From NCBI GenBank assembly GCA_019636625.1, contig JAHBXE010000006.1, forward strand, positions 1 to 64,000: a DNA stretch of 64,000 bases, given 5' to 3'. This document shows positions 18,117-19,628 of this stretch, one piece after another (the stretch's first letter is position 1; every line of letters starts with the position of its first letter). The notes under the pieces were generated by a model that was given only the letters and a program-made list of their open reading frames with translations, searched no databases and was not told where the DNA came from. This DNA is from Phycisphaeraceae bacterium (lineage in GTDB: Bacteria; Planctomycetota; Phycisphaerae; Phycisphaerales; UBA1924). Made by a program: the position numbers and the translations under genes.

Positions 18117-19556
18117 TCACCCCCACCGCGTCACATGCCAACTCTTCTTGCCCCGGCGCAGCGCGATCACCTTTCCGTGCAGCAGGTCCCCTTCCTTCAG
18201 CCGCTCTTCGGCGGAGGCCTTCCGCGAGTTCACCATCACCGACCCCGACGCCAGGAACTCCCGCGCCTCGCGCTTGCTCTTGCACAGTGTCGTCTCTGGC
18301 AGCAGGTCCACCAGCGCCACGCCTTCCCCCGACAGCAACTTCCGATCGTGGGAACTCGACGGCGCCGAGGCGAACACCTCGTTCAGTTCCGGCTCACTCA
18401 GCCCCGAGATCTCACCGGAGAAGAGCGCCTTGGCCGCGGCCTCCGCCCGGTGCATCTCCGCCTCGCCATGCAGCAGCGCCGTCGCGGCGCGGGCCAGTTC
18501 CCGCTGCGCGTGCCGCGCCCCGGGGTCCCTGGCGTGCTCCGCCTCGATCGCCTCGATGGCTTCCTTGGAGTGAAGCGTGAAGATCCGCAGGAACCGCCCC
18601 ACATCGGCGTCCGTCGCGTTCAACCAGAACTGGTAATACGCGTACGGACTGGTCCGGTGCGGCGAGAGCCAGATCGCGCCCGACTCGGTCTTGCCGAACT
18701 TCCCGCCGTCGGCTTTGGTCACGAGCGGCGCGGTCAAGCCGAACGCCTTGTTTGGATAGGACACCCTTCCTGGACCTACCGCTTGGTACCCCCTCAACTC
18801 TTCGTCGCGCCGAATCAAGTCCACCCCACCCACAATATTCCCCCACTGATCACTTCCCCCCATCTGCAGCGTCACCCGCCCATCAAGCCCGTACTTCGCG
18901 TAATCCCGGAACAGCACGAGGTAGTCGTAACTCTGCAGGATCATGTAGCTGAACTCGGTGTAGCTGATCCCCTGGTCCCGGTTGTGCAGCCGCTCCCGCA
19001 CCGAGTCCTTCTGGATCATCATGTTCACCGAGAAGTGCTTCCCGATGTCGCGCAGCGCCTCCAGATACCCGAGCTTCCCGAGCCAATCCAGGTTGTTCAG
19101 GATCGTGGGTGGCCTGCCGCTCCGCGGCGGGCGCATTCCCGATCTCTCTTCACCCGCTTCCCGCTCTGCCGAGTGGGCGTCATGCCCGCCGCGGAGCGGC
19201 AGGCCACCCACAGCCTCGGCATTCCCGAACACCCTCTCAAAGATTCCCCGCTGCGCCTCGACGTTCGCCCGCACCATCGCCTCGGTCTGAAGCTGCCGCT
19301 CCGCGCTCTTCCCCGATGGGTCCCCGATCAGCCCCGTCCCCCCGCCCATCACCACCACCGGCTCATGCCCGGCGCGGCGGAAGTGCACCAGCATCATGAT
19401 CGTCACCAGGTTCCCGATCGTCAGCGAGTCCGCCGTCGGGTCGTACCCCACGTACGCCCGGCGCACGCCCGTCCCCAGGTGATGGCGCAGCAACTCCTCA
19501 TCCGTGCACTGGTGAAACAACCCGCGCCACTTGAGTTCATCGATGAAGTCGATCAT
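18117..19556 (-). CDS. tyrS: Tyrosyl-tRNA synthetase with in-frame palindromic insertion
   Basis: 479 aa, longer than the usual 400-430. Class I features: YDPTADSLTIGNL (the HIGH position, here TIGN), GGGTGLIGDPSGKS, the tyrosine/tRNA region LRDIGKHFSVNMM, QMGGSDQWGNIVGGVDL, KFGKTESGAIWL (KMSKS equivalent) and a C-terminal S4 RNA-binding domain (CKSKREAREFLASGSVMVNS). It charges tRNA-Tyr. Residues about 116-151 (VGGLPLRGG...RPPRSGRPPT) have no counterpart in the family and are encoded by a perfect 28-bp inverted repeat with a 51-nt centre. They fall just before the conserved NNLDWLGKLGYLEALRD block, a connection where a loop could be tolerated. The ATG at 19556 starts the family sequence; a longer frame would translate a terminator hairpin. 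Confidence 0.93.
   Translation of the reverse strand: MIDFIDELKWRGLFHQCTDEELLRHHLGTGVRRAYVGYDPTADSLTIGNLVTIMMLVHFRRAGHEPVVVMGGGTGLIGDPSGKSAERQLQTEAMVRANVEAQRGIFERVFGNAEAVGGLPLRGGHDAHSAEREAGEERSGMRPPRSGRPPTILNNLDWLGKLGYLEALRDIGKHFSVNMMIQKDSVRERLHNRDQGISYTEFSYMILQSYDYLVLFRDYAKYGLDGRVTLQMGGSDQWGNIVGGVDLIRRDEELRGYQAVGPGRVSYPNKAFGLTAPLVTKADGGKFGKTESGAIWLSPHRTSPYAYYQFWLNATDADVGRFLRIFTLHSKEAIEAIEAEHARDPGARHAQRELARAATALLHGEAEMHRAEAAAKALFSGEISGLSEPELNEVFASAPSSSHDRKLLSGEGVALVDLLPETTLCKSKREAREFLASGSVMVNSRKASAEERLKEGDLLHGKVIALRRGKKSWHVTRWG
19105..19211. repeat. 107-bp palindromic element inserted in frame in tyrS
   Basis: Two 28-bp arms (19105-19132 and 19184-19211) are perfect reverse complements, with a 51-nt centre. 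The ends are GTGGGTGGCCTGCCGC and its complement. The element is 107 nt long, so one extra base, perhaps part of a target duplication, keeps the frame as 36 codons. No second copy was found by eye in this window. Confidence 0.85.
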
Positions 19557-19563
19557 CGCGCCA

Positions 19564-19569
19564 AGGGTA
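19564..19569 (-). promoter_or_regulatory. -10 box of tyrS
   Basis: TACCCT on the minus strand, ending 7 nt before the tyrS ATG and just downstream of the terminator of the preceding gene. It explains how tyrS is expressed with so little room behind a terminator. No -35 match. Confidence 0.45.
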
Positions 19570-19570
19570 G

Positions 19571-19604
19571 CAAAGAAAAACCCCCGCACAGGCGGGGGCT
19601 TTGA
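19571..19604 (-). terminator. Rho-independent terminator of the prepilin-like gene
   Basis: On the minus strand, a 7-bp GC stem (CCCCCGC / GCGGGGG, 4-nt loop) is followed by TTTTT. It lies 25 nt after the stop of the upstream gene and 15 nt before tyrS. Confidence 0.85.
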
Positions 19605-19628
19605 TTCACTCAACAGCTTCCGTCCCGA

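Follow-up and report, generated by a model that had tools for sequence, protein, structure and literature searches.

RAYTs are HUH single-strand endonucleases with one catalytic tyrosine, and transposition of the IS200 type is not expected to leave a target-site duplication. In the described REP/REPIN and RAYT systems, tagged hairpin units of 25 nt occur in many copies and in inverted doublets, a RAYT with HUH and Tyr motifs has the same unit on either side, and the copies are nearly all extragenic, as in P. fluorescens SBW25, where 14 of 1067 sixteen-mers overlap genes (PMC3116915, PMC2817692, PMC8266576). GTGG-tagged REPs with RAYTs have already been published (PMC2817692), and a change from GTAG to GTGG moves the cutting of one TnpA-REP to CC (PMC8266576). 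REPs lying in frame are known in several bacteria (Di Nocera et al. 2013, PMC3733652): that paper describes GTAG- and CGTC-type monomers and dimers translated in frame within genes, including tRNA synthetase, pseudouridine synthase and uvrA genes, with the most GTAG-type intragenic REPs in the verrucomicrobium O. terrae of the PVC group. For the CGTC-type Rickettsia repeats it gives no linked transposase, and by what means these enter protein-coding genes without being lethal to the host is unclear.

The element described here lies in the tyrS gene of the window, by which we mean the whole 64-kb stretch of DNA that was analysed. The features of the locus are the following:

18117..19613, minus strand: tyrS, the tyrosyl-tRNA synthetase frame holding the element, 498 aa (Pfam tRNA-synt_1b; NCBIfam tyrS equivalog; single match in the genome)
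about 19556, minus strand: likely tyrS start, the methionine of MIDF (sequence reading)
19105..19211, no strand assigned: whole 107-bp element, two REP-like units arranged as an inverted doublet (repeat listing, RNA and DNA folding, no counterpart in the TyrRS of 42 relatives)
19108..19132, plus strand: REP-like unit 1, family A, GGTGGCCTGCCGCTCCGCGGCGGGC (GTGG tag, then the imperfect hairpin GCCTGCCGC-TCC-GCGGCGGGC)
19133..19183, no strand assigned: spacer, 51 nt, no stop in the tyrS frame (sequence reading)
19184..19208, minus strand: REP-like unit 2, family A, inverted copy of unit 1 (unit pattern matches)

A sequence-only reading of this DNA had reported two perfect 28-bp arms with a 51-nt centre inside the tyrS frame, and the repeat and ORF listings confirmed this exactly: the arms at 19105-19132 and 19184-19211 are 28 nt each, 100% complementary and 51 nt apart. 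This was the sole perfect inverted repeat of at least 18 nt (gap of at most 300 nt) listed for the 64 kb, the remaining listed repeats of at least 18 nt being 71-89% complementary, and the arm core had two matches in the window, both within the element, relative to a chance expectation of 0.02. The very stable RNA hairpin that the same reading had expected from the arms was also predicted by folding of the element strand (-88.2 kcal/mol, z -7.5 versus shuffles), and DNA folding of this strand gave z -7.1; such a hairpin is to be expected from the way the element is built. The inverted REP units in tyrS are predicted to fold into one hairpin, as a doublet does, and many other family A copies are single units.

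The tyrS ORF, the only match in the source genome, scored 341 bits with the NCBIfam tyrS equivalog (cut-off 113.8). The earlier view that the element is an in-frame insertion and apparently tolerated is supported. It was found by alignment that the TyrRS of 42 of 42 relatives, most of them different genera of the same family and the others of the same order, had no counterpart of the insert, either with or without an inverted repeat, which rules out that the insert is an ancestral TyrRS segment. The insertion site is a variable-length loop between IFERVF and ILNN. Of the earlier statement that about 36 extra residues occupy positions 116-151, the numbering is right if translation starts at the MIDF methionine, but the gain is not fixed and comes to about 26-36 residues net over relatives with a variable loop. 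The structure prediction for TyrRS was confident (pLDDT 85, pTM 0.85), with the insert as the main low-confidence stretch, and the insert is accordingly modelled as a disordered additional loop. A second variable site was seen in the TyrRS of relatives (loci L145, L148, L149 and others) at core position 238-244, with up to about 90 extra residues.

A search of the arm against the source genome yielded many further copies. The joint unit pattern had 69 matches, versus 0 for the reversed pattern used as a control, and the copy number together with the reversed-pattern and expectation controls rules out a chance palindrome. The family A unit is present in about 14 elements dispersed in the genome, and about 36 more carry GGTGGCACGCCTCTCCGAGGCGTGC, the unit of a sister family (family B). 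We examined about 48 elements with their surroundings; these copies come from a pattern search, and very diverged ones may be missed. About 27 elements of the two families are in frame within genes, as judged from a stop-free frame, high third-position GC and a Pfam or NCBIfam match, with the choice between "in gene" and "near start" made by judgement in a few cases. They comprise about 12 of the 14 family A elements and about 15 of the 36 family B elements, the others of family B being intergenic or near gene starts. The family A hosts are TyrRS, ThrRS, ValRS, MetRS, LeuRS, MnmG, TruA, AsnB, an FtsX-type permease, an inositol-phosphatase family protein, a glycoside hydrolase and, by eye only, a reductase-like ORF with a diverged doublet. 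Family B is found in UvrA, DnaE (two), CarB (two), RimO (two), RlmN, PurL, PrpB, IspH and a secretin-domain ORF, as a second insert in ValRS, and in the FtsX-type permease already hosting family A. The dinucleotide CC stands at -4/-3 in 39% of family B units, and family A, to which the tyrS element belongs, shows a weak preference for it. In known systems nearly all copies are extragenic, whereas here about half lie in frame in genes; therefore, we call the element "REPIN-like", meaning that it departs from the standard form of the REP/REPIN class.

These copies bear on the possibility that the hairpin came to regulate tyrS, through mRNA stability or translational pausing, or that the extra loop is of use to the protein, and that the element was kept for that function. 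Such a role would fit the very stable predicted hairpin and the presence of several elements in translation-related genes, which make up 7 of the 12 in-frame family A hosts, a share that seems high, was noticed post hoc and may reflect survivorship in conserved genes. However, the same units are found in numerous unrelated genes as well as in intergenic DNA, all 42 relatives do without the insert at what is a variable-length loop, the insert is predicted to be disordered, and Rfam contained no family that matched the element; we therefore regard this explanation as unlikely.

The unit of the tyrS element also flanks a RAYT in the same genome. As in the described systems, one unit is found on both sides of the transposase: two inverted family A copies, 29 bp and perfect, surround a Y1 transposase domain in leuS. 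Unlike in those systems, the RAYT lies within leuS and lacks its own stop codon, so that LeuRS and RAYT form a stop-free ORF of 1297 codons, which scored 948 bits with NCBIfam leuS_bact (cut-off 548) and 84 bits with the NCBIfam REP-associated tyrosine transposase (cut-off 80) and is the only LeuRS match in the source genome. The RAYT retains the HUH (SNHVHW) and Tyr (YIVFNPVEAG) motifs. The structure model of a LeuRS-RAYT fragment had low confidence as a whole (pLDDT 63) and was good in the RAYT part (about 84-94). The LeuRS editing domain was recognised across the insertion (E. coli 2ajg_A, Z 14.7, rmsd 2.8, 137 aligned residues), the structure-match lists for the fragment were filled by LeuRS entries, and the sequence match of the RAYT to the solved TnpA-REP (4er8) was weak (E 0.07). 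A clean empty site is present in the LeuRS of another genome of the same family (G151). The source genome yielded no RAYT with family B units at its flanks.

Other Y1 transposase genes of the source genome (L056, L057, L059 and L062) are flanked by inverted repeats of differing sequence, which suggests that several REP/RAYT families exist there side by side. A further Y1-domain ORF (L058, contig C5, about 1-1300) contains six near-identical tandem peptides of the LATQSLWPVPP type, apparently another translated palindromic repeat family.

We consider it probable that the tyrS element is a REPIN-like REP doublet. It would be a non-autonomous passenger in a REPtron-type system with the leuS-borne RAYT as transposase, and this RAYT would be its most likely mobiliser. 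The sequence-only reading had instead noted a resemblance to the Rickettsia palindromic elements (RPEs), and in layout this holds: like RPEs, the palindrome in tyrS measures about 100 bp and is dispersed, stop-free, in frame in conserved genes and apparently tolerated as an extra peptide. The closer kin would be REP/RAYT systems, because the GTGG-tagged units with REP anatomy also flank the leuS RAYT, whereas RPE-4/6 (CGTC) repeats are reported to have no association with a transposase gene (PMC3733652). A true RPE unrelated to RAYT transposition is therefore a very unlikely identity for the element.

We infer the mobilisation by this RAYT, the route of insertion, the translation and the activity of the products as follows. 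The doublet, when single-stranded, for instance at replication, would fold into a hairpin; the RAYT would recognise the GTGG-tagged REP hairpin, cut it and join it at another place. Insertions that break a needed gene would be lost, leaving intergenic copies and copies set in frame in permissive loops. The tyrS copy may have landed in a variable-length loop, where its translation would add residues predicted to be disordered; its tolerance would be explained by the open frame, the absence of stops and the permissive site.

Removal of the insert after transcription or translation, as with an intron or intein, is conceivable in that the host gene is essential, as hosts of inteins often are, and the leuS RAYT (not the tyrS element) shares with inteins the presence of a mobile-element protein in frame in an essential gene. 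However, the insert is in frame and stop-free, which would not be necessary if it were spliced out of the RNA, Rfam gave no intron match in the tyrS region, and Pfam detected no HINT protein-splicing domain in tyrS, in the LeuRS-RAYT ORF or in ten ORFs with embedded RAYTs. The Pfam and Rfam scans thus lend no support to an intein or intron, the insert apparently remains in the protein, and we judge removal to be highly improbable.

When the leuS RAYT was used as a query against 151 genomes of the order, 28 matches were obtained in 23 genomes. Six stand alone, and 22 are within another gene and in the frame of the host (ValRS 9, RdgB 7, LeuRS 5 and MiaA 1), the hosts being identified by Pfam/NCBIfam for a sample and otherwise by sequence motifs. 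In a ValRS search of ten genomes, one ValRS was found in each, and two-piece matches adjoin on one contig. The catalytic motifs were retained in those RAYTs checked, and at 24 of the 26 loci examined the RAYT is flanked by inverted REP-like units, mostly differing between genomes. Further LeuRS cases were found in named Phycisphaerae MAGs (L213, L214 and L216; L215 is apparently the G012 case again). Beyond the order, RAYT-like domains occur in long ORFs, and two genomes have FabZ interrupted in frame by such a domain at roughly one position (L248 in G214 and L253 in G396). The arrangement of a RAYT within a host gene thus recurs across related planctomycetes. A related REP is present in 65 copies in G127 and 14 in G033, both with a RAYT in LeuRS, and in 0 copies in G151, a congener of G033 with a RAYT-less LeuRS, a comparison of three genomes only; the copies in G127 and G033 are a mixture of in-gene and intergenic ones among the loci examined. 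In G071, a RAYT (L188) lies in frame at a second LeuRS site, after EAYWM, unlike the editing-domain site elsewhere.

These genomes also speak to the possibility of an artefact of metagenome-type assembly. The source genome is in 41 contigs and 94% complete, a state in which such errors can be suspected, but the units recur far above chance. In-frame RAYTs are also present in the single-contig genomes G099 and G093, and therefore assembly error is extremely improbable.

We lean slightly towards a broader proposal, in which RAYTs without their own stop are in-frame domains in permissive loops of planctomycete LeuRS, ValRS, RdgB, MiaA and FabZ, expressed with the host, kept by selection and feeding in-frame REPs, including that of tyrS. 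If this is true, the transposase would be protected against deletion by the essential gene that hosts it, in the manner of an intein though with no splicing.

For four pairs of LeuRS-borne RAYTs, pN/pS was 0.27-0.48, versus 0.32-0.44 for the flanking LeuRS, ratios that are rough because synonymous sites are near saturation. As far as these four pairs go, the LeuRS-borne RAYTs appear to diverge under roughly the same constraint as LeuRS. The RAYT tree clusters by host gene (5 changes versus a shuffled mean of 12.2, as low in 0 of 200), and the clade with the LeuRS-borne RAYTs also includes MiaA-, ValRS- and other-site members. At L213, the LeuRS pairs with that of L214 (99/98), whereas the RAYT pairs with that of the source genome (94/96); therefore, there is a hint of some reinsertion or transfer. 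Judged from the sequences, this history would fit descent with some relocation, and repeated insertion at one permissive loop is possible.

The sequence-only reading knew of no description of such elements for this group. In-frame REPs were already published in 2013, including those of O. terrae (PMC3733652), and therefore the tyrS case alone is not new; the unit family, with its GTGG tag and phycisphaeral host, is new relative to the GTAG and CGTC families given there. The consulted sections of that paper describe no RAYT in frame in a host enzyme, and we found no description in the open-licence PMC literature of a RAYT embedded in frame in an essential gene or a tRNA synthetase; protein databases may list such fusions uncommented. 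With in-gene palindromes and their likely transposase both in frame in one genome, the question of what moves these palindromes becomes testable. If the embedded RAYTs are active within LeuRS or ValRS, this would be a way for transposons to persist that we did not find described, and a source of new loops for core enzymes.

A 2018 survey put aside unexpectedly long Y1 proteins as gene fusions or annotation errors (PMC6006769), and the embedded RAYTs are a warning for surveys that discard such proteins. RAYT-like domains were also seen in ORFs that, judged by eye, resemble DNA methyltransferases or restriction-type proteins (L231, L240, L247 and L251, in G228, G522, G332 and G201, respectively), and one was seen in an FAD-dependent oxidoreductase-like ORF (L242).
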